Source of the DNA: Streptomyces capillispiralis
GTDB taxonomy: Bacteria > Actinomycetota > Actinomycetes > Streptomycetales > Streptomycetaceae
Direction of reading: 5' to 3'
NCBI RefSeq assembly: GCF_007829875.1
Contig: NZ_VIWV01000001.1
Span: forward strand, 3,814,501 to 3,878,500
Length of the DNA stretch: 64,000 nucleotides
The notes below the pieces were generated by a model. That model was not told the DNA's origin. It made no database searches and saw only the letters and a program-made list of their open reading frames with translations. The position numbers and the translations under genes are program-made. Numbering within the stretch: position 1 is the first letter of the stretch; every line of letters begins with the position of its first letter. Positions 19,248-32,884 of this stretch are shown piece after piece.

Positions 19248-19757
19248 TCAGGGGCGCTCGATGGTGATGAAGGGGTCCCACTGGAAGTAGCCCCGCAGGT
19301 TGCGGTGGCGGTCCAGGATCTGGAAGTAGAAGTGGTAGACGACCTTGCCGGTCCGCTTGACCGTCGTGCGCCAGTAGTGGTCCTCGTACTCCTGGGTCGT
19401 GAACGCCGGTGTGCCCTCGCTGCCCTCCTGCGGCATCGGGTAGACGCCGTCGACCACCTCGATCTCCGGCGTCCTGATGAGCACGTGGCTGGTGTCGCTG
19501 CTCACGTACCGGTACAGGAGCGCCTTGTAGTCGCTGCCGAGTGACAGCGTCGTCTCCCGCCACTTGACGCTGTCCCCCGGCTCGGCCCGGAGGTTCAGCT
19601 CGGCGCCCGAGGTGCCGATGATGTGGTCCTGCCGCGTGGTCATGTAGATGAGGCTCTGGTCGGCGTAGGTCGGTGCGTCGGGGTTCCTCGACGCGTTGGG
19701 GTTGCGCTCGACGATGGTGGCCGCGTCGAACGCGATCAGGACGTTGAGTTCAGCCAT
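19248..19757 (-). CDS. AidA/PixA (inclusion body)-family protein
   Basis: 169 residues, no signal peptide. It begins AELNVLIAFDAATIVER and has YMTTRQDHIIGTSGAELNLR, then YWRTTVKRTGKVVYHFYFQI and GYFQWDPFITI near the end, the pattern of the PixA/AidA family. Founding members are the Xenorhabdus inclusion protein PixA and quorum-controlled AidA of Ralstonia/Burkholderia; none has a known enzymatic role. It is the third gene of an operon with an amine oxidase and a ThDP enzyme, 60 bases after the latter. Confidence 0.82.
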   Translation of the reverse strand: MAELNVLIAFDAATIVERNPNASRNPDAPTYADQSLIYMTTRQDHIIGTSGAELNLRAEPGDSVKWRETTLSLGSDYKALLYRYVSSDTSHVLIRTPEIEVVDGVYPMPQEGSEGTPAFTTQEYEDHYWRTTVKRTGKVVYHFYFQILDRHRNLRGYFQWDPFITIERP

Positions 19758-19817
19758 GTCGTGCCCCTTCCGGATGCGGGTCGTGGGACGTCCGTGCCTG
19801 CCGGGCCGGTCGGCCCG

Positions 19818-21656
19818 TCAGCTGCTCGTGCCGGGCTTCGGCACCTTGTACGCCATCGCCCTCGGGTAGTCGTGCCGGTGCAGGCGGACGCGGACCAGCA
19901 GCGGTCCGGCGTTCACCGGGTCGGCGGGGTCGGTGAGACGGGCCAGCAGGGCGTCCAGTTCGGCGGTGTCCGTGACGCTGACGCCGCTCGCCGGTGTGTC
20001 CCGGCCGGCGAAGACGGCGGCGAGGCGGTCGTAGTGCCACGGGTGGAGGACGTTGTAGAAGTCCGGCTCGGGGCCGTCCTGTCCGGCGTAGTAGCCGGGG
20101 TGGACCAGCATCTGCTCGATGCCGTAGAAGTGCCCGTTGTCCATGACGAACACCACCGACCGCAGTCCCAGCCGGGTGTGGGTGGAGATCTCCTGGCAGG
20201 TCTCCTGGAAGGCGCCGTCGCCGACGAACACCATCGGGCGGGCGGGTGTGCGCTCGGGGGCGAGCGCGGCACCGGTGGCCGCGCCGACCGACCAGCCGAT
20301 GGACAGCCAGCTGACCTGCGACAGGAAGCCGCCCGCGGGCAGCGACAGGTTCATCGAGCCGATGAGGGAGAACGCGGCGTCGGAGACGACCGTCCAGTCC
20401 TCCCGGGTCTCCTCGCCCAGGAAGTGGTTGATCCGGTCGAACACGCCGTCGTAGGTGAGGTGGTGGGGGTGCCGGGACGCGGAGCCGGGGACGCGCAGGG
20501 CGGCCCGGTGGTCCTCCAGGGTGGCCGGGCGGTGGCGGGGACCGCGGTGGTGGGCGTGGGCCTCGGCGTAGTAGTCGGCGCTCAGCCCGCCGGAGCCGTA
20601 GGCCTTGACCAGCGCGTCCTGGAGGGCGGGCAGCAGGTCCTCGAGCTGGACGTCGGGGAAGTAGGAGGTGCCGACGCTGACGCCGCCGTTCGCGGCCATC
20701 ACCCAGTCGGTGCCGACGGACCGCTCGCCGCCGAGGTTCTTCGACGTGGACCAGGCGCCGAGCCCGATCCGGCAGGTGGCCCACTCCTTGAAGACCCAGT
20801 GGACGTCCGGGTGGCTGGCGTGGCCGTTGTAGACGCCGTGGAACTGCGGGTGGTCCTCGTCGAGGACGGCCTTGGCGCCGACGGTGGTGCAGAACGGCAC
20901 CCCGGTGGCCTCCACCAGGTCGGTGAGCTGCCCGCCGAGGCGGAACCGGTCGGTCTCCTCACCGGCCCACACGATGGGGCGGGGCCTGCCGTCCGGACCC
21001 GGGTGCTCCTCGACCAGGGTGAGGATCGCGTGCACGGCGTCGTCCAGCAAGGAACGGCCGCGGTCGCCGAGCGGCCGTTCACGGCGCAGGAGCGGCTCCT
21101 CGGGCTCGGCGCAGGGCTCGTCCCACAGGTCCTCCATGACCTCCAGGTAGACCGGCCTGCGCTCGGTCAGGCAGGCGGTGAGCGCGGCGTCGATCTGGCC
21201 GGGGGCCAGGCCCGGGTGGGAGATGACCTGCGCGTCCACGGTGACCTGCCGGTAGACGTCCAGGTTGCTCTCGGTGCGCGGGCTCATGTGGGAGGTGAGC
21301 AGGCCGAGGGCGCGCTGGTTCTGCCACTGCTCGTAGGGCGGGGAGGCGTTGACGGCGACGAGCGGGACCCGTTCGACGTAGGCGCCGCCGCAGGCGTTGA
21401 GCAGGTTGAAAGCGCCGACGCCGTAGGTGACGGCGGCCGCGCCGATGCCGTGGATACGGGCGTAGGCGTCGGCGGCCTGGCCGGCGCCGCCCTCGGTGGG
21501 GGTGCCGACCCACTCGATGTCGCCCTCGGCGCGCAGGGTGGTCAGGAACGGGCCGAGGTGGTTGCCGGGGACGCCGAACAGGTGGGTGATGCCCAGCTCG
21601 GCCAGGCGCAGGGCGAGGTAACGGGCGACCGTGCACCCGGGGTTGACCGCGATCAC
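19818..21656 (-). CDS. Thiamine-diphosphate-dependent enzyme (pyruvate/indolepyruvate decarboxylase-like)
   Basis: 612 residues. The N-terminal PYR domain starts [20 protein letters not shown] and VPGNHLGPF, with the catalytic Glu in [18 protein letters not shown] middle domain runs from about residue 200 to 370. The C-terminal PP domain carries the ThDP motif [13 protein letters not shown]...[10 protein letters not shown]. It most resembles 2-oxoacid decarboxylases rather than acetolactate synthases, but this is by eye. Its GTG start overlaps the amine oxidase stop (GTGA), implying coupling: the oxidase would make a 2-oxo acid, which this enzyme would decarboxylate. The substrate is unknown. 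Confidence 0.85.
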
Positions 21657-23692
21657 GATGCGTTCCCCTCCCGCTCCGGGCCGGGGGTGGTGACCGGCGG
21701 GGCCTGGTGGACGGCGACGGCGGCGCGGACGGCGCTCTCCAGGGCGCCCTCGATCCAGGCGTGCTTGAGGGAGGTGTGCTCGCCGGCGAAGTGCACGGGG
21801 CCCTCGGGCCGGGAGACGTCCAGGTGGAAGCTGGTCATCTGGTGGGCGGTGTAGATGGCGGCCTCACCGAAGGCGTACGGGTCGCGGGCCCAGGACTGGG
21901 TGGCGCCCCGGCCGGTGAAGAACACCTCGATGCGCCGGCCGTGCAGGGCCTGGAGGTTGCGCAGGGCGTAGACGTAGCGCTCGGCGTCGGGCATGGAGTC
22001 CCAGCGGGCGGCGTCGTCGGACCAGCAGTAGGAGGCGAGGACGACGCCGCCGGTGCTGCCCTCGACCCGGTGCGAGGGGTAGTACATGAACCGGTTGGGG
22101 TTGTCGGCCGCGGAGCCCCCGCCGAAGCAGTGGGTGGCGGGGCGGACGGCGGGGCCGCGCAGCGGCAGGCTGCTGTCGATCCGGCGCATCTCCTCGGTGA
22201 CGCCGCTGTCCTTGATCGCGGCACCGAGCAGGCCGGCCTCCGGCTGCGGGAGGGTGACGCGGGACACGGCGTCCGCGTCGGCGCCGTACCGGTAGGAGTC
22301 GTACAGGCCCGGGGCGATGGCCTCCAGCTCGCTGCGCCAGTCGTCCTCGGTGAACTCCCACCACCGGTGGCTGAACTCCAGCAGCACCTTGGTGGCCTGG
22401 TCGTAGTGCGTCTCGATGATCGCCCGGCGCTTCTTGTACGACATCGAGGGGACGATCTCCACGAAGCGCAGCGCGGAGAACGGGACGGTGACGATCGCCA
22501 GGTCCGCGGTCCACAGCTGCGGCGTGTCCTGGGGGTCGTCCTCGGTGACGGTCTGTACGGCCACGCCCCAGCCGTCGGGGCCGACGGCGCCGGTGCCGTC
22601 GGGGTCGGCGTCGCGGCTGGGGTCGTGGTATTCGAGGCGGATCACGCGTTGGCCGAAGCGCACTTCGTCGAGCAGGCCCTGGTGGAGGGCGTGCGGCAGG
22701 CGCCAACTGCCGCCCGGGACCTCCCAGTAGCGCACGCCGGGGTTGATGTCGCTGCGGCTGAGGAAGCTGTGGAAGAAGGAGAGGTGCAGCCGTGAGGACA
22801 TGTTCTCCAGCGTTCCGACGGCCTCGATCGCCTCGTCGCTGAGCCCGGCGTGGTCGCGCAGGAAGCCGCCCATCGAGTAGCCGTCGAAGTCGCGGATCAC
22901 CCGCGCCCAGCCCTCGATCCACTCGTCGACCGGCTTGTTGACGCGCTGCCCGTCGACGACGTCGGAGTAGTAGTCGCGGACGCTCTCCAGGGCGTCGTCG
23001 ACCATTTTGACCACGGGGGCGCGGACCTCGTCGTCGGTGAGGTGGAAGCCCTCGTTGATCCGCTCGGGCCCGGCGGCGTACGCGGACCTGCGCACCTGGG
23101 TGCGGTTGGTGCGGATCCAGGAGTTGCCGCGCTTGTCGGGTTCGCGGAAGTCGGGGCTGTCGTCGCCGTAGGTCCAGGTGCGGCCGGTGAAGGAGGTGTA
23201 CGTGACCGGGGGGACGGGGACGTCGGGGCCGCTGCCGGTGGCGGGGTCCACGTCCACGTTGTAGAACTGGCGCCGTCCGAGGCCGAGTTTGTCGACGAGG
23301 GCGAGGACCAGCGGGTGGAAGTCGGGCAGCCGCATGGCGCCGGCCTCGGCGTACTGGGCGGGGTCGGCGAAGGGCTGGTGGTGCTCGGTGGCGCGGAAGG
23401 TCTTGATGCGTCCGCCGACGCGGTTGGCGTTGGCCTCCAGGACGGTGACGTCGTGGCCGGCGTCCTTGAGCAGACGGGCGGCGACCAGGCCGGTGATGCC
23501 GGCGCCGATGACGAGGATCTTCTTGCGCGGGTGGCGGGTGGGGCCGAGGTGGCCGGTGTCGATGAGGGTGTGGAGGTAGTCGAGCTTGAGGTCCTTGTCG
23601 TCCGGGCCGACGAGGAGGAGTTCGCGGGCAAGTCGGAGACAGGTCTGCCAGCGCGCACGGGTGGCGGAGTTTTCCCGTGAAAGGTCGGTCAT
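21653..23692 (-). CDS. Flavin-dependent amine oxidase (L-amino-acid oxidase-like)
   Basis: 679 residues. The FAD-binding motif is [20 protein letters not shown] with [16 protein letters not shown] (about residues 60-100). A conserved [11 protein letters not shown] substrate region follows, and [20 protein letters not shown] near the end closes the FAD site. No signal peptide is present. It is longer than typical bacterial L-amino-acid oxidases, with an approximately 55-residue N-terminal extension. Likely reaction: amino acid plus O2 to 2-oxo acid, ammonia and H2O2. The ATG has no clear ribosome-binding site; AAAAGGAG lies too far upstream, so the true start is uncertain. First gene of the oxidase-ThDP-AidA operon. 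Confidence 0.87.
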
Positions 23693-23987
23693 AGCTTGCG
23701 ATCGTAGGGATGGAGAAACGGTTGCTCCTTTTCTTTCGGGGACAAAGTCCAAAAAGCACTGATCGCCTCGCATGACGTGAATTCGGCTTGCTCGGTCCAT
23801 TCCCGCCGGACGGCAGGTCCGCCAGGGGCGGGTGGGAAAAGAGAAACAGAGCCGAATCGATAATCCACAAGGGGAGTACGGAATTCCCGTCGGCTCGGTG
23901 GGGGTGGTCCCGCCATTCGACGGGGGTGAAAAGGGCGCCGGGACGGTGGTTTTCCGCCGGGTCGCCGGGGCCGGGCGATCGCCGCCT

Positions 23988-25185: not shown

Positions 25186-25233
25186 GGGTCACATCGGCTA
25201 CTGGGTCAGATCGGCTACTGGGTCAGATCGGCT
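25186..25233. repeat. 17-base tandem repeat, nearly three copies
   Basis: Unit GGGTCAGATCGGCTACT at 25186, 25203 and 25220 (the first copy has CACA for CAGA, the third is partial). It spans the PAP2 gene's stop codon, so each unit repeats the terminal codons and the stop. Confidence 0.75.
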
Positions 25234-26707
25234 CGGGCTGTGGTTCCGGGGTGCGCGCCGGTGTGAGCCTCGGTTCCCACAGGGCGGTGGTCCGGACGTA
25301 GCCGTAGACCACCGAGGCCGTCACCAGCAGGAGCAGCGGACCGGAGATCCACGCGTGCCGGGCCAGCTCCACCGGAAGGAAGCGGTACGACAGCAGGAGG
25401 GCGACGAAGACCGTCGTGCCGTACGCGGTCAGCCGCACCCCCGACCGGTCCCAGCCGCGGTCGTACGCGCGCAGGGCCGCCTCGATGGTGAGCGTGAACA
25501 CCACGCCGGCCAGGAGATCCGCGCCGTAGTGGTAGCCGAAGCCGAGCGTCGCGGCGAGCGTGGCGATCAGCCAGAACGTTCCCGCGTAGCGCAGGACGCG
25601 CGGGCCCTTCCGGGAATGGATGAAGATCGCGGTGGCCCACGCCGTGTGCAGGCTGGGCATGCAGTTCCGTGGGGTGATCCCGTCGAACGGTATGGAGTGC
25701 GGGGCCGTGATCGGCGGAGGGGTGTGCGGCCACAGGTCGGCCACCGCCCACTGGACGCTGGGCGGCATGTCCTCCGCCCACAGGCTGACCGCCGCCCAGT
25801 GCTCGGTGCCGGTGCCGTAGGCGAAGAGCGGGCCGACCACGGGGTAGATCATGTAGAAGGCCGGGCCGAGGAGGCCGATCACCAGGAAGGTGCGCACCAG
25901 GTGATGGGCCGGGAAGCGGCCCTCGGTGGCCACACCGCGCAGCTGGTAGAGCGCGACGACGACCGCGGCGACCGCGAGCTGGCCGTAGACGAAGTCGAGG
26001 AGGTTGAAGCCGAGGGGGCCACTGGCCGTGACGATCCGGCCCACCACCCACGAGGGGTTGCCCAGCGCCTGGTCGGCGATGGCCACGTACGGGTCGAGCA
26101 CCTGTGGGCGGGTCTGGGAGGTGATGAACAGCCAGGTGTCACCGGTCTTGCGGCCGGCCATCAGCAGCAGGGCGAGCCCGACTCCCTTCAGCAGCAGGAC
26201 ACGTTCCCGGCCGGTGCGGCGCGTGACGGCGACGACCGCACAGCCCAGGGTCACCCACAGGGCGCCGTTGCCGAAGGGGTGGCCGCCGTTCGTGCCGATG
26301 TCGAACGCCCACCGGACCACCAGGAAGACGAGGTCGACACCGATCGCCGCCCCCAGCGCGACGAGCCGTTGCCGCCAGGTGAGGACCACCATCATCAACG
26401 CCATGGAGGCGTACAGCAGACCGCCCGACTTGGGGGCGAACACCACCTCGCGGGCCTGGTTGGTGATCGGCCCGGGAAGGCCGTGGCGGCGCGCGGCGAC
26501 CTCCAGCGCGATCATGAATCCGAGGGCCACGGCACCCGCCAGGGCCCAGAGTCCCGCCCGCGGACGGCGCCACACGGACGACAGGGTTATTCGGTTCTCC
26601 TGTGCCCGGTTCTCATGTGCCGGGCTTTCATGTGCCCGGTTCTCATGTGCCCGGTTCTCGTGTATTCGGTTCTCACGCGAAAGGTGCTGCGGGGGTATGT
26701 CGGTCAA
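25223..26707 (-). CDS. PAP2-superfamily integral membrane phosphatase-like protein
   Basis: 494 residues with about ten membrane helices. The C-terminal half carries a PAP2-type signature: RNCMPSLHTAWA (central His) and GYHYGADLLAGVV (second His), as in phosphatidic-acid phosphatases and inositolphosphotransferases. It probably acts on a lipid phosphate at the membrane. The first 40 residues are an unusual repeat (HENRAHENRAH and variants) encoded by a 15-base tandem repeat. The TTG start is uncertain because the repeat could be extra sequence; LSSVWRRPRAGLWAL would suit a conventional N-terminus. Confidence 0.75.
   Translation of the reverse strand: MTDIPPQHLSRENRIHENRAHENRAHESPAHENRAQENRITLSSVWRRPRAGLWALAGAVALGFMIALEVAARRHGLPGPITNQAREVVFAPKSGGLLYASMALMMVVLTWRQRLVALGAAIGVDLVFLVVRWAFDIGTNGGHPFGNGALWVTLGCAVVAVTRRTGRERVLLLKGVGLALLLMAGRKTGDTWLFITSQTRPQVLDPYVAIADQALGNPSWVVGRIVTASGPLGFNLLDFVYGQLAVAAVVVALYQLRGVATEGRFPAHHLVRTFLVIGLLGPAFYMIYPVVGPLFAYGTGTEHWAAVSLWAEDMPPSVQWAVADLWPHTPPPITAPHSIPFDGITPRNCMPSLHTAWATAIFIHSRKGPRVLRYAGTFWLIATLAATLGFGYHYGADLLAGVVFTLTIEAALRAYDRGWDRSGVRLTAYGTTVFVALLLSYRFLPVELARHAWISGPLLLLVTASVVYGYVRTTALWEPRLTPARTPEPQPEPI
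26589..26676. repeat. 15-base tandem repeat coding the PAP2 protein's N-terminus
   Basis: Unit TGTGCCCGGTTCTCA occurs about five times, with variants such as GCCGGGCTTTCA and TGTATTCGGTTCTCA. It keeps frame and encodes a pentapeptide like ENRAH on the minus strand. Copy number may vary between strains. Confidence 0.85.
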
Positions 26708-27191: not shown

Positions 27192-29018
27192 TCAGGTCAC
27201 CGGCAGGTGCTCGCCCGGCGGGGGCAACAGCAGTTGCGTGGCCGCCAGTTGCCGGTACAGGACGTCCTGGGCAATCAGCTCCTCGTGGCGTCCGACCGCC
27301 CGCACCCGGCCGCGGTCCATGACGACGATGCGGTCGGCCATGGTCACGGTGGAGAGGCGGTGGGCGATGACGATCACCGTCGTCTCACGGACCAGGTCCG
27401 CGACGACGTCCCGCAGCGCCTGCTCGTTGGTGGCGTCGAGCTGGGACGTGGCCTCGTCCAGGAGGAGCAGCCGGGGCCTGCGCAGCAGGGCGCGGGCGAC
27501 GGCCAGGCGCTGGCGTTCGCCGCCGGAGAGCTTCGTCCCCCGGTGGCCGACGTGGGTGTCGAGGCCCTGCGGCAGCGAGCGGACGAACTCGTCGAGGCGG
27601 GTGCGCGCGAGCGCCTCGTGGATCCGGTCGTCACCGGCGTCGGGAGCCGCGAAGACGAGGTTCTCCCGCAGGGTCCCGGAGAGCACGGGTGCGTCCTGCT
27701 CGATGTAACCGATGGCGGCCCGGAGCCGGGGCAGGGGGATGCCGAGCACATCGTGGCCGTCGACGAGCACCCTGCCACCGGTGGGTTCGTAGAACCGCTC
27801 GATGAGCGCGAAGACGGTCGACTTGCCCGCACCGGAGGGGCCGACCACGGCCGTCATGTGGCCGCTCGGCGCCGTGAAGTCCACGCCCCGGTGAACGTCG
27901 GGCAGTTCGGGGCGATAGCGGAAGACGACGTTCTCGAACGTGATGGTGACGGGGGCGTCGGGGAGGGCCGTCGCGCGTGCCGGCCGGTCCGCTCCGCCGA
28001 CGTCGTCGGTCTCCAGCAGGTCGATCTCCCGCAGCCGTGCGACGGCGGCCGCGCCGACGTGGAACTGCGTGGTCGCCTGGATCAGCTGGGAGATGGGCTC
28101 CATCAGGTAGAAGAGGAAGAGGAGGAAGGCGACCAGGGTGGACACGCCGATGGTTCCCGAGGCCACGCGGGCGCCACCGACGCCCAGGACGGCGAGGAAG
28201 GACATCTGGACGGAGAGTCCCGCGGAAGTGCCCATCACCGACTGCCACTTGGCGGCCTGCACGCCGTTGCGCCACGCCTCGTCGACGGACTCCCGCACCA
28301 CGGCGGTCTCCCGGTCCTCGGCTCCGGAGGCCTTCACGGTGCGGAAGGCGCCCAGCGCGCGTTCGAGTACGGCCCCCATCGCGCCCACCGACGCCTGGGC
28401 CCGCAGCGTCGCGCGGGAGATGCGCGGCATCGTCGTGGTGATCACCCCGCCGACGAGGGTGATGACGCCGACGGTGACCCCGAGGAGCAGGGGGTCGAGC
28501 CTGCCCATCATCACCATCACCCCCGCGAGGGTGAGGACACCGTTCACGGCCGAGACGGTGGACTGGGTGGTGACCTGCCGCAGCAGGGTGGTGTCCGAGG
28601 TGACGCGGGCCAGCAGGTCGCCGGGCTCGGTGCGTTCGAGCTCTCCCACCTTGAGGCGGAGGAGCCGTGCGACAAGCTGGTGGCGGGAGTTCCGTACGAT
28701 CGACTCGGCGGTGTGGGCCAGGACGTACTGGCTCAGGGCCTTGAGGACCGCACCGAGCAGGACGAGGCCCGACAGCATGATCAGGGTGCCCGTGAACAGC
28801 TCCCCCTGGCCGAGGTCGTCTATGAGCTCCTTCGCCGCCAGCGGCTGGACCAGGACGGCCGCCGCCCCGGCGAGACCGAGCAGCCAGCCGGCGGCGATCC
28901 GCCCCCGGTGCCGGCGGACGTGGACCAGCAGCACGCCGAACGTGGCGCGCGGGGAGAGCGGGGGGCGGGGCCGGGAGCCGGTCCCCGGCCCCGTGTCGAG
29001 GCGGTCGGTGTCACGCAT
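27192..29018 (-). CDS. ABC transporter with fused membrane and ATPase domains (lasso peptide exporter)
   Basis: 608 residues. Six membrane helices occupy about residues 30-330 and a nucleotide-binding domain follows from about 350: Walker A GPSGAGKST, Q-loop GYIEQDAPV, signature LSGGERQ, Walker B LLLLDEATS and H-loop IVIAHRLS. This is the half-transporter type that works as a homodimer exporting peptides or lipids. Last gene of the lasso operon, 18 bases after the LLM gene. Export of the mature lasso peptide and producer immunity are the likely roles. Confidence 0.9.
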   Translation of the reverse strand: MRDTDRLDTGPGTGSRPRPPLSPRATFGVLLVHVRRHRGRIAAGWLLGLAGAAAVLVQPLAAKELIDDLGQGELFTGTLIMLSGLVLLGAVLKALSQYVLAHTAESIVRNSRHQLVARLLRLKVGELERTEPGDLLARVTSDTTLLRQVTTQSTVSAVNGVLTLAGVMVMMGRLDPLLLGVTVGVITLVGGVITTTMPRISRATLRAQASVGAMGAVLERALGAFRTVKASGAEDRETAVVRESVDEAWRNGVQAAKWQSVMGTSAGLSVQMSFLAVLGVGGARVASGTIGVSTLVAFLLFLFYLMEPISQLIQATTQFHVGAAAVARLREIDLLETDDVGGADRPARATALPDAPVTITFENVVFRYRPELPDVHRGVDFTAPSGHMTAVVGPSGAGKSTVFALIERFYEPTGGRVLVDGHDVLGIPLPRLRAAIGYIEQDAPVLSGTLRENLVFAAPDAGDDRIHEALARTRLDEFVRSLPQGLDTHVGHRGTKLSGGERQRLAVARALLRRPRLLLLDEATSQLDATNEQALRDVVADLVRETTVIVIAHRLSTVTMADRIVVMDRGRVRAVGRHEELIAQDVLYRQLAATQLLLPPPGEHLPVT

Positions 29019-29036: not shown

Positions 29037-30110
29037 TCAGACGGCGCCACGGCCGGGAACCGCGCCGACGGCCCGCCGGACGGCGGGGAAGACCTCCGTG
29101 GCGAGCCGCTCCAGGTTGCGGAGCACGTCGCCGGTCTTCTCGGCGGCTTCGACCTGGCACATCACGCGCCGGCAGCCGGAGACGGAGACATGGCGCACCA
29201 GCCGTTCCACGCAGGTCTCCACGGAACCGACGGGCTGGGTGCCGAGGAGCCGGTCCGTGAGTGTCCCGACGCTCTCGGGGGACACCGGGGGCGGGACGGA
29301 CTCCGGCCGGGCGGCCAGCCGGCTCGGGTCGTTGTTGAGGGAGAGGATGAACCGCGCCCGGTTCCCCATCAGCCGCCGTGCGCGCTCAGCCGACTCGGTC
29401 ACCTGTGTGAAGACGGCGAACGCGTGGCCCCAGGGGGGTGCCGGGCGGCCGCCGGCGCGGGCCCTGGCGTCGTAGTGGGCCACCATCTGCGCCTTGGCCT
29501 CGGGGCCCTTGTCGTAGAACAGCAGCAGGGGCAGGCCCCGGTCGGCCGCGAGCTCCGTCGTCGCGGGCGAACCGGCGGCGACGTAGACCGGTGGGCGCGG
29601 GAGGGACCGTACGGCCGGTGACGGCCGCAGGGGCGCGGGGAGGCCGTGCGCGATGCCCGTGGTCACCTCACCGTTCAGCGTGGCGAGGGTGAGGTCCAGG
29701 GGCTCGGCCAGACCGGCCCGCCAGGACGCGAGCCCGGGGCCGATCACGTCGTACTCGACGCCGGGGAACCCACGGCCGACGCCCAGGACGAACCGGCCGC
29801 CCGACAACTGGTCCAGCAGGGCGGTCTGCTCCGCCACGTGGACGGGTGAGTGCAACGGCAGCACCGTCACCGCGGTGCCCACGTGCACGGTGTGCGTCTT
29901 GCCCAGCAGATAGGCCGCGAGCCCGAGCGCCGAGGGGTTCACGGAGGCGCCGAGGAAGTGGTGTTCGGTCAGCCACAGGTCGTCCAGGCCCAGCTCCTCG
30001 GCGAACCGCGCCACCTCGACCGTACGGGCGAGGACGTCGCCGTCGGACTCGTCCGCGTACCGGTCGGTGGACAGCAGCACACCGAACCGGATGTCGTCAT
30101 GCGTGGTCAC
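29037..30110 (-). CDS. LLM-class flavin-dependent oxidoreductase in the lasso operon
   Basis: 357 residues of the luciferase-like monooxygenase fold: RFGVLLSTDRYADES, ELGLDDLWLTEHHFLG, NPSALGLAAYLLGKTHTVHV, GTAVTVLPLHSPVHVAEQTA and SGGRFVLGVGRGFPG. It could use FMN or F420, and the sequence does not decide. Its GTG start overlaps the B2 gene by 14 bases, so it is an integral operon member. Core lasso enzymes do not include LLM proteins; a tailoring oxidation of the peptide is the natural hypothesis. The core has four Trp and one Tyr as possible targets. Confidence 0.9.
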   Translation of the reverse strand: MTTHDDIRFGVLLSTDRYADESDGDVLARTVEVARFAEELGLDDLWLTEHHFLGASVNPSALGLAAYLLGKTHTVHVGTAVTVLPLHSPVHVAEQTALLDQLSGGRFVLGVGRGFPGVEYDVIGPGLASWRAGLAEPLDLTLATLNGEVTTGIAHGLPAPLRPSPAVRSLPRPPVYVAAGSPATTELAADRGLPLLLFYDKGPEAKAQMVAHYDARARAGGRPAPPWGHAFAVFTQVTESAERARRLMGNRARFILSLNNDPSRLAARPESVPPPVSPESVGTLTDRLLGTQPVGSVETCVERLVRHVSVSGCRRVMCQVEAAEKTGDVLRNLERLATEVFPAVRRAVGAVPGRGAV

Positions 30111-30540
30111 GGGCCCTCCGTCGGTCGGTCGGGGCGGGTACGCGGATGAGTGTGTGGAAGAGCCGGACGTTCTCGTCCTCGCCCACCGGGTGGCGGTTCA
30201 CCTCGACCCAGGCGTGGGCCCGGAAGGGCTGGGTGCGCACGCCGGTGCACCAGTCCGGCCAGTTGCCCTTCACCCGGCAGAGCAGCACCGTGGCCACGGC
30301 ACGCTGCAGGCAGCCCTGGCCGGCGCACCTGCGGCTGACGGACACCACGGCCCGGCGGCTCGTCAGGGCCTCGGCCTCGGTGGCGGGACGGGCGCCCCGG
30401 GCGGCGGCGCCCAGGACACGGCGCAGCCTCGCGGGGGGCAGCTTGATGAGGAACCAGGCGGCCGTCACGGCGATCCGGGCGAGGAGCGCCAGGGGCCAGG
30501 GGGTCCGGGTGCGCTGCTCGGGCAGGAGCGGGAAACTCAT
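30097..30540 (-). CDS. Lasso peptide biosynthesis B2 protein (leader peptidase)
   Basis: 147 residues with the transglutaminase-like protease pattern: catalytic Cys77 in GQGCLQRAVATVLLCRVKG, His109 in FRAHAWVEV, and the acidic third residue in HPVGED. B2 removes the leader from the precursor in cooperation with B1 and C. It starts ATG overlapping the B1 stop (ATGA) and overlaps the LLM gene at its end. The separate B1 and B2 genes are typical of actinobacterial lasso clusters. Confidence 0.92.
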   Translation of the reverse strand: MSFPLLPEQRTRTPWPLALLARIAVTAAWFLIKLPPARLRRVLGAAARGARPATEAEALTSRRAVVSVSRRCAGQGCLQRAVATVLLCRVKGNWPDWCTGVRTQPFRAHAWVEVNRHPVGEDENVRLFHTLIRVPAPTDRRRARDHA

Positions 30541-30794
30541 GAGGTCACCAGTCCGGCCCTGGTCAGACCCGCCAGCAGCTTCTCGACGTCCGCCGTCACG
30601 CGCGCGGGGTCCTGTGCGAAGCGTGTGCTGAGTTCGTCGACGACGTCCGGAATGCGCCTGCCTTCCTGGAGCAGCCGTACGACCGCCGCTCCGGTGGGGT
30701 TGAGCATCCAGTAGCGGCCCGTGCCCTCGTGGAGCAGGACCATGCCGTCGTCGGTCTCGGTCGTGGAGACCTCGGGGCCGAGTGCGAAGCTCAT
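30537..30794 (-). CDS. Lasso peptide B1 protein (PqqD-like RiPP recognition element)
   Basis: 85 residues with the PqqD/RRE pattern: a beta-hairpin (VSTTETDDGMVLLHEGTGRY), WMLNPTGAAVVRLLQEGR, then three helices ending LLAGLTRAGLV. RREs bind the leader peptide, classically at its YxxP motif, and hand it to the B2 protease and C cyclase. It starts ATGA-overlapped with the cyclase gene stop. Confidence 0.92.
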   Translation of the reverse strand: MSFALGPEVSTTETDDGMVLLHEGTGRYWMLNPTGAAVVRLLQEGRRIPDVVDELSTRFAQDPARVTADVEKLLAGLTRAGLVTS

Positions 30795-32623
30795 CGGGTT
30801 CCTTCCCTGCCCCGCGCCCGTGTGCGCGCCGCCTCGACCGAGCGCAGCCACGACTCGCAGGCCAGTGTGGCGACCATGGGGATGAACGTCCGGGAGGTGG
30901 GGTGCGGGCTGAGCAGTACGGTGCGGACCGCCTCCTCGTCCACGAGTCCCAGGCGCGCCAGGCGCATGTCCTCGCCGAGTGCGAGCAGGTCCCGCCGGTA
31001 CCGGCGCACCCCCGCGTACACCTCGGCGCTGAACTCGCCCTTGGTGGAGCGGCTCAGGACGGGGGCGGGGACGACGCCCCGCATGGCGGTGGCCAGCACC
31101 GGTTTGGCCTGCCCCGTGTCGTAGCGGTCCGCGATGCGCGCCGAGAGCGCCGCCTCCACCACCCGGTCGTCGAGGTACGGGGCGTGGTAGGCCACCCCGA
31201 GGGGGGAGGTGAGGCGGTCGGTCAGACGGACCTTGCCTCCGCACTGGCGCACGGCCTGGATGAGCACGTGCTGGGCGGGCGAGGCGGAGAAGGGTGCGGT
31301 TCCCGCCCCGGCCGCCTCGTCGAACGCTGCCCGGCACGCGTCCACGGCGTCGCCGGTCGCCCAGTGGGGCAGCCTCGGGAAGTAGCCCCAGCCGGTGACC
31401 GGCTCCCGGGGTCCGTGGATCGGCCGGGACAGCGACGCGGAGGCGGTGGCGAGCCACTGGCTGTAGGAGGGGTTGCGCAGGAGGTTGCGCAGCATCGCCC
31501 CGAGCGGCCAGCGGTACATGCTGCGGGCGGCCCGCAGTGCGCTGACCGAGCGCAGCGGCCGGTCGCGGGCGAGGGCGTGGTAGAGGGAGGGCGGGGCGTT
31601 GAAGAGTTCGTCGCCGCCGTGGCCGGTGAGCCGGACCGACACGCCCTGGGTGGCGAGGCGTTCGGTGACGTACAGGGTCTCCGCCCTCTTGCGGTTCCAG
31701 GCGTACGGGGCTTCGAGGACGTCGTCGTGGTCGAGCTGCCCGGCGAACGAGGGCGGCAGGTCCGTCGCGTCGAACACCAGGTGTTCGGCGTCGGGCAGCA
31801 GGGCGGCCGCCCGGGCTCCCCATCGTGCGTCGTCGTTGCCGGGGTCCGTGGCCTCGTGCCGTACGGTCACCCATCTCCGGCCGGGCTCCCGGCGGCCGGT
31901 GAGGAAGGCGAGGGACGAGGAGTCCATGCCGCCGGACAGGTCGCAGGCGAGGCCCGTCCCGGAGCGCGTCCGCGCGGCGACGGCGTCCGTCAGCGCGTCA
32001 CGGACCCGTACGGCGGCCTCGGCGAGCGGCAGGCCGGGGGCCGGTGGGACCCACCAGGCGACGGTCCGGTGGCTGCCGTCGGGGTGGACGCGCAGACGGT
32101 GTCCCGGCTTCAGGCACTCGACTCCGCGCCATGCCGTGCGTTCGCTCAACGGCGGGGGCGGCTGGGCCATGAGGTGGCCGAGCAGGGCCCGTTCGTCGAT
32201 GCCGCCGCCGGCCAGCTCCGCCAGGGTGTCCGGCCGGTCGGCCGCCAGGGTCGCTCCGTTGACGGTCGCGTAGAAGACCTCGCGGACGCCCGAGAGCGAC
32301 CCCTGCACGGTCAACTGGCCCTGCAAGGACGCGACGGCGTGGTAGCTGCCCGGGATCCTGCGCAGCGCCTCGTGGAGTTCGTCGGCGCCGGTGGCGCGTT
32401 CCAGTAGTCCGCCGAGGTCCGCGGGGACGGCCCGGAAGCAGCCGAGAAGCGCCAGGCTCCGGTTTCCGCGCGTGACCGTCAGGACGTCCCCGTCGTCCCA
32501 CGTGCCCACCAGCCACGGCCGTCCGGACGCGTGCGACAGCGTCCTGTCCCGTTTCCCGTCGCGGAGGACGTCCTCCACGACGGCCGCGCCGGCCCGGTTG
32601 TCGGTGACAGCGAGGAACTCCAC
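30791..32623 (-). CDS. Lasso cyclase (asparagine synthetase-like C protein)
   Basis: 610 residues. The N-terminal glutaminase-like domain lacks the catalytic Cys at position 2 (it begins VEFLAV), as is normal for lasso C proteins. The synthetase domain has the ATP-pyrophosphate motif CDLSGGMDSS (Ser230-Ser235) and RLTGHGGDELF. It adenylates the Asp/Glu side chain of the core and forms the macrolactam with the core N-terminus. The start is GTG with GGAGG upstream. It is separated from the precursor gene by a hairpin. Confidence 0.93.
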   Translation of the reverse strand: MEFLAVTDNRAGAAVVEDVLRDGKRDRTLSHASGRPWLVGTWDDGDVLTVTRGNRSLALLGCFRAVPADLGGLLERATGADELHEALRRIPGSYHAVASLQGQLTVQGSLSGVREVFYATVNGATLAADRPDTLAELAGGGIDERALLGHLMAQPPPPLSERTAWRGVECLKPGHRLRVHPDGSHRTVAWWVPPAPGLPLAEAAVRVRDALTDAVAARTRSGTGLACDLSGGMDSSSLAFLTGRREPGRRWVTVRHEATDPGNDDARWGARAAALLPDAEHLVFDATDLPPSFAGQLDHDDVLEAPYAWNRKRAETLYVTERLATQGVSVRLTGHGGDELFNAPPSLYHALARDRPLRSVSALRAARSMYRWPLGAMLRNLLRNPSYSQWLATASASLSRPIHGPREPVTGWGYFPRLPHWATGDAVDACRAAFDEAAGAGTAPFSASPAQHVLIQAVRQCGGKVRLTDRLTSPLGVAYHAPYLDDRVVEAALSARIADRYDTGQAKPVLATAMRGVVPAPVLSRSTKGEFSAEVYAGVRRYRRDLLALGEDMRLARLGLVDEEAVRTVLLSPHPTSRTFIPMVATLACESWLRSVEAARTRARGREGTR

Positions 32624-32758: not shown

Positions 32759-32884
32759 TCAGCAGCCCAGCCACCAGCACTGGTCGTACTCGTCCCAGCC
32801 CCAGGTGCCGTTGTCCAGCGTGAGGTCCGAGAACTCCCCGATCTCCACCAGGGCGGGCGGTTCGTACACCGAGACATCGCTCAT
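32759..32884 (-). CDS. Lasso peptide precursor
   Basis: 41 residues. The leader has the actinobacterial recognition motif YEPPALVEIGEF (Y7 to F18), with Gly16 spaced as usual. T22 is the conserved Thr two places before cleavage. Cutting after L23 gives an 18-residue core, DNGTWGWDEYDQCWWLGC. The ring would then join Asp1 to Asp8 or Glu9. Cys13 and Cys18 could form a tail disulfide, as in LP2006 (class IV). Asp as the first core residue is uncommon; cutting before G26 (ring to the ninth residue, D34) is the alternative. GGAGAGGTG precedes the ATG. Confidence 0.9.
   Translation of the reverse strand: MSDVSVYEPPALVEIGEFSDLTLDNGTWGWDEYDQCWWLGC

Follow-up and report, generated by a model that had tools for sequence, protein, structure and literature searches.

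The window, by which we mean the whole 64,000-nucleotide stretch of DNA analysed here, carries on its minus strand a lasso peptide operon in which a gene for a luciferase-like monooxygenase (LLM) directly follows that of the leader peptidase. The features are as follows:

32759..32884, minus strand: precursor peptide A, made up of MSDVSVYEPPALVEIGEFSDLTL and the predicted class IV core DNGTWGWDEYDQCWWLGC, identified by translation, by the lasso leader model NF033521 of NCBIfam (above cut-off) and by alignment with class IV cores
30791..32623, minus strand: lasso cyclase C, asparagine-synthetase-like (PF00733, passed, E 5.7e-42; best NCBIfam model NF033561, E 8.6e-74, 249 bits against a cut-off of 300 and thus below it)
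30537..30794, minus strand: B1, leader-binding protein of the RRE/PqqD family (PF05402 and NCBIfam NF033530, above cut-off)
30097..30540, minus strand: B2, transglutaminase-like leader peptidase (PF13471 and NCBIfam NF033537, above cut-off)
29037..30110, minus strand: FilE-type LLM (PF00296 over its full length, E 1.2e-58)
27192..29018, minus strand: ABC exporter with fused membrane and ATPase domains (PF00664 and PF00005)

With a leader, a B1 (RRE), a B2 and a cyclase all present, this locus is, judging by the profile matches, a lasso peptide biosynthetic cluster. The LLM reading frame is intact, with a GTG start at 30110 and a GGAGGG ribosome-binding site just upstream. The original prediction placed a 14-base overlap between the LLM and B2 genes and an 18-base gap between the LLM and exporter genes, and both figures are exact (B2 at 30097-30540 and LLM up to 30110; exporter starting at 29018 and LLM ending at 29037). 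That the LLM is made together with the lasso machinery, as was also proposed, is well supported by its membership in the operon and by the recurrence of its placement next to B2 in eight other lasso clusters, which argues against a chance arrangement; as these clusters have similar cores, the LLM likely acts in making or handling the lasso peptide of the window. Promoter and terminator scans returned nothing. The source genome harbors about 18 PF00296 genes (19 matched stretches, two within one frame) and four lasso B2 genes, with an LLM adjoining only the B2 of the window. The three other lasso clusters of this genome (L098, L127 and L131), with cores such as LLGRAGNDRLILSKN (citrulassin-like) and GSWLGQHIEGGPPPFQLRP, have neither an LLM nor a MauE-like gene beside B2.

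The translated core contains four Trp and one Tyr, as originally noted, along with two Cys residues that had gone unmentioned, and its class IV nature had likewise been missed. With the core start set by the usual Thr at position -2 and by alignment (the cleavage site being inferred), the core aligns with the pattern G-x-x-x-W-G-F-D/E-x4-C-x(3-4)-C, which is that of LP2006 (GRPNWGFENDWSCVRVC) and felipeptin A1 (GSRGWGFEPGVRCLIWCD) (sequences listed in PMC12427821). In an alignment of nine cores, Asp8, Cys13 and Cys18 correspond to what class IV requires, namely an Asp/Glu ring acceptor and two tail Cys residues, and the cyclase groups with class IV cyclases in a tree (support 86/84). By sequence, then, the operon is a class IV lasso cluster of the felipeptin kind, with a predicted ring between D1 and D8 and a predicted tail disulfide between C13 and C18. 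The core is unusual in its Asp1 and its richness in Trp; it adds one cluster to the felipeptin type and could be expressed.

The original prediction had called for modeling of an FMN or F420 pocket, and both the fold and the phosphate-binding residues of the modeled LLM turned out to be of the FMN luciferase type. The best PDB match is 8cbb, the Enhygromyxa luciferase (E 6.6e-43), to which the AlphaFold2 model (pLDDT 82.6, pTM 0.85) aligns with a Z of 37.3 and an rmsd of 3.2 over 337 residues; LuxA comes next and F420 enzymes rank lower (Z of about 30 vs. 37). The likeness to LuxA (1LUC, 3FGC) and to 8CBB extends over the whole length of the fold (Z 36-37, 27-30% identity). In the phmmer alignment, from which the residue pairing was taken, H50, H51, R113 and S181 of the LLM correspond to H44, H45, R107 and S176 of LuxA, which we take to be the catalytic His and FMN-phosphate residues, and all four are invariant in the 18 relatives compared. 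There are differences from LuxA as well, in that its reactive Cys106 and its Glu175 are both replaced by Gly. No lux genes were seen around the LLM of the window, and no cut-off of the NCBIfam LLM subfamilies (MsnO8, LuxA and F420 groups) was reached, with scores of 122.7 bits vs. 600 for LuxA and 105.4 vs. 166.95 for MsnO8. Based on this sequence and model comparison, we consider the LLM to be of the FMN (LuxA) type rather than of the F420 type. Were the LLM instead an F420-dependent enzyme that reduces or dehydrogenates the peptide, it would resemble the LanJC reductases of lanthipeptides and have a parallel in the LLM-superfamily reductases that act on dehydroalanine in other RiPPs, but the ranking of the matches speaks against it, as does the absence of a dehydratase from the operon and the scanned neighbors, which would leave no dehydroamino acid to reduce; we regard such a role as highly improbable.

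Recurrence of LLM genes beside B2 genes with similar cores, proposed at the outset as a check, was indeed found, in eight other class IV clusters. With the precursor as bait, 14 lasso loci were retrieved from Streptomyces, none of which had an LLM beside B2, and a scan of GTDB r220 genomes and viral contigs with the single LLM sequence confirmed no close relative. Of 60 lasso loci drawn from a class-wide survey of B2 genes, one, L090, had the same operon and an LLM 49% identical to that of the window. The single-sequence scan being insufficient, a profile built from these two LLMs was needed, and it retrieved 13 loci in named genomes; LLMs within class IV lasso clusters were found in Streptomyces iconiensis, S. 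atratus, S. sp. XM4193 (L158, the same locus as L090) and Embleya hyalina, while the remaining loci (Nocardia, Sciscionella, Pseudonocardia, Kutzneria and others) had no lasso cluster around the LLM. Close relatives of the LLM also exist as standalone actinobacterial genes; those inspected in Nocardia, Sciscionella and Kutzneria have no lasso genes nearby. The Embleya cluster is decayed, with the class IV precursor, B1 and LLM intact (L159:8366-11080), the cyclase broken and B2 not found. The LLM-type class IV cluster of S. iconiensis encodes a second precursor with a Cys-free core, GYPGFSYDYAWVHKGPPSGISA (L150:7006-7170), and about a dozen lasso-leader matches occur in that genome. A precursor profile run against the family to which the Kutzneria genome belongs recovered seven more class IV clusters, of which four have an LLM; in another family, guessed as a possible host of the felipeptin producer, only other lasso peptides were found. 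In all, the order A-C-B1-B2-LLM is shared by the window and eight further actinobacterial loci, every one with class IV cores.

One of these loci, L205, encodes GSRGWGFEPGVRCLIWCD and GGGGRGYEYNKQCLIFC, which match felipeptins A1 and A2 at every residue (the cores of L206 are the same), and its LLM (L205:7028-8071), directly after B2, is 52% identical to that of the window. The felipeptin (fil) cluster is a class IV cluster of Amycolatopsis containing FilE, a 'flavin-dependent oxidoreductase' whose role was called obscure in a 2022 review (PMC9266682). Given the exact match of the cores, the LLM of L205 is almost certainly FilE, and the LLM of the window belongs with it by sequence: the nine lasso LLMs fall on one side of a branch apart from other LLMs, near standalone actinobacterial ones, with moderate support (90/86, 91% of bootstrap trees). 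The two clusters share gene order and core class, but the felipeptin cluster has two tandem precursors and a C13-C17 spacing, whereas the window has a single precursor, Asp1 and C13-C18. The exporter of the window is 57-60% identical to those in the same position in its Streptomyces relatives (L150, L151 and L158) vs. about 30-36% for felipeptin-type loci.

The slot after B2 is not always occupied by an LLM. In eight other class IV clusters (L026, L027, L112, L124, L201, L203, L204 and L212), the gene following B2 encodes a MauE-like membrane protein, with a (D/E)CxCFG motif and PF07291 matches of E ~1e-20 in L026, L112 and L124. Thus, each of the 17 class IV clusters carries exactly one of the two genes, nine an LLM and eight a MauE-like gene; in the window and the eight other LLM clusters the LLM gene lies directly after B2 on the same strand, with the 14-base overlap in the case of the window. 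If loci that were retrieved by way of the LLM itself are set aside, 13 class IV clusters remain (five LLM and eight MauE), whereas none of about 70 other lasso loci has an LLM adjoining B2. For many of these other loci no precursor was identified, and a search of them by pattern turned up no further class IV core; the link of the LLM to class IV has a Fisher value of 4e-5, kinship ignored. On the cyclase tree, a single change of label within class IV is sufficient to account for the LLM/MauE exclusion, so the split may represent one old replacement that was retained rather than many. Distant LLM genes do lie kilobases from three MauE-type class IV clusters, on the opposite strand (L203:10986-11930, L204:11127-12053 and L201:3641-4582); with E values of ~1e-23 to 1e-26 and 26-31% identity to known LLMs, they fall outside the FilE type. 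L212 (genome G1173), whose core is exactly that of LP2006, has the precursor pattern and core enzymes of the window, but its B2 is directly followed by a MauE-like gene (L212:10274-10777) and there is no LLM. The 2022 review describes class IV clusters as lacking additional homologous genes beyond A-D and mentions none for LP2006 (PMC9266682). We found no description of the LLM/MauE slot exchange in the literature searched.

As four Trp and one Tyr are available in the core, and 7-hydroxy-Trp occurs in RES-701 lasso peptides, the LLM had originally been cast as a candidate tailoring enzyme, with Trp hydroxylation as the suggested model. RES-701 clusters do resemble the window in pairing an extra gene, that of the proposed hydroxylase ResE, with a Trp-containing core, and ResE is described as a hypothetical protein (PMC9266682). 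The hydroxylated Trp of the RES-701s is, however, C-terminal, whereas the core of the window ends in Cys. Trp14 was considered as a target on the basis of the window and L090 cores and rejected, since other LLM-linked cores have Ala or Leu at this position. Trp hydroxylation of this type is unlikely, because no Trp is common to the LLM-linked cores, felipeptin A2 has none at all and, for felipeptins A1 and A2, a tail disulfide is the only additional change listed (PMC12427821). Much of this evidence also bears on a broader proposal, that the LLM adds oxygen to the core, either on a side chain (e.g. a Trp, Tyr or Phe ring) or on the backbone, to give a product of +16 Da. LuxA-type LLMs are O2-activating monooxygenases and residue 7 is aromatic in all LLM-linked class IV cores, but an aromatic residue 7 is equally present in the MauE-type cores, and together with the felipeptin data this leads us to rate such oxygenation as improbable, albeit less so than the F420 role. 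Of the two mass shifts first suggested, -2 Da would fit as a disulfide, while +16 Da by Trp hydroxylation is not supported. The calculated masses are 2214.82 Da for the lasso dithiol, 2212.80 Da for the disulfide and 2228.80 Da for the disulfide with one added oxygen. The LLM is more likely concerned with the two cysteines than with Trp hydroxylation.

We therefore postulate, tentatively and as something that may well prove wrong, that the FilE-type LLM oxidizes the thiols of Cys13 and Cys18, taking the place of MauE. In this scheme, the LLM would be a two-component, FMNH2- and O2-using monooxygenase of the bacterial luciferase type, probably cytosolic and possibly handed the precursor by B1, which has that role for CanE and MslH; the flavin peroxide of the LLM would convert one Cys to a sulfenic acid, which the second Cys would attack to close the tail disulfide, a task that a MauE-like membrane protein would perform from the same gene slot in other class IV clusters. 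Several observations favor this reading: 1) the LLM and MauE exchange in one slot, strictly so among the 17 class IV clusters and with no LLM beside B2 in the other lasso loci, and disulfide formation has been speculated for MauE (PMC7794033), as it has been annotated for the DoxX-family SviE/HumE of class I clusters; 2) beyond the lasso essentials, the LLM-linked cores have in common only the class IV pattern, with aromatic residue 7 and, most notably, two tail Cys residues; 3) the nine clusters sharing the operon order are all class IV, one being the felipeptin cluster by exact core; and 4) the fold and the conserved phosphate and catalytic residues are of the FMN luciferase type, and other LLMs (SsuD, SfnG and CmoJ) act on sulfur compounds. 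To our knowledge, no LLM makes a disulfide, and we know of no description of disulfide formation by a flavin-peroxide/sulfenic-acid step in the LLM superfamily.

The main rival is that the disulfide forms spontaneously, with the LLM in an accessory role (protection of the producer, redox balance, export or repair), which also seems to be the case for the redox genes of class I. Those clusters (SviE/HumE, DoxX; SviF/HumF, thioredoxin-like) also combine extra redox genes with a disulfide-bearing peptide, but have four-Cys cores, other gene families and redox genes placed after the transporters rather than after B2. In class I, mutants without mslE, mslF or sviF continue to form disulfides, though yield is reduced or export is changed, engineered disulfides form unaided, and class IV disulfides have been considered possibly non-enzymatic (PMC9266682). 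An accessory role would also be consistent with the intact LLM next to the decayed C and B2 of Embleya and with the standalone relatives, whereas the strict tie of the LLM to class IV and to the position directly after B2, maintained across LLM divergence to about 50% identity, speaks against it; we view this alternative as possible but somewhat doubtful. The case for thiol oxidation is itself weakened by the dispensability of the class I genes and the unaided engineered disulfides, by the Embleya cluster, by the Cys-free second precursor of S. iconiensis and by the single label change that could explain the LLM/MauE exclusion. It is further weakened by the cysteines of the LLM, where a lasso-specific redox pair was looked for and not found, the conserved Cys being common to non-lasso relatives.

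Both the formation of the class IV tail disulfide and the role of FilE have been stated as open questions (PMC9266682). The felipeptin type of class IV cluster was already known; what is added here is the LLM/MauE slot exchange, which makes the FilE question testable: FilE very probably represents a conserved enzyme of the luciferase type and trades places with a MauE-like gene, so that a direct genetic test is at hand. More generally, class IV clusters might conceivably rely on either of two unrelated redox modules for the tail disulfide, one being a MauE-like protein in the membrane and the other a soluble flavoenzyme of the luciferase type that works via a flavin-peroxide/sulfenic-acid step, although we hold this with considerable reservation; if true, disulfide formation by way of these intermediates would be a reaction of an LLM.

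Two further features of the window lie outside the lasso operon. A 15-base unit, CGGTTCTCATGTGCC, is repeated 5.6 times at 26592-26675, within the N-terminal part of a DUF5933/PAP2 gene (25223-26707), and genes for a PixA-like inclusion body protein, a thiamine-pyrophosphate enzyme and a flavin amine oxidase (19248-23800, minus strand) possibly constitute a separate small pathway.
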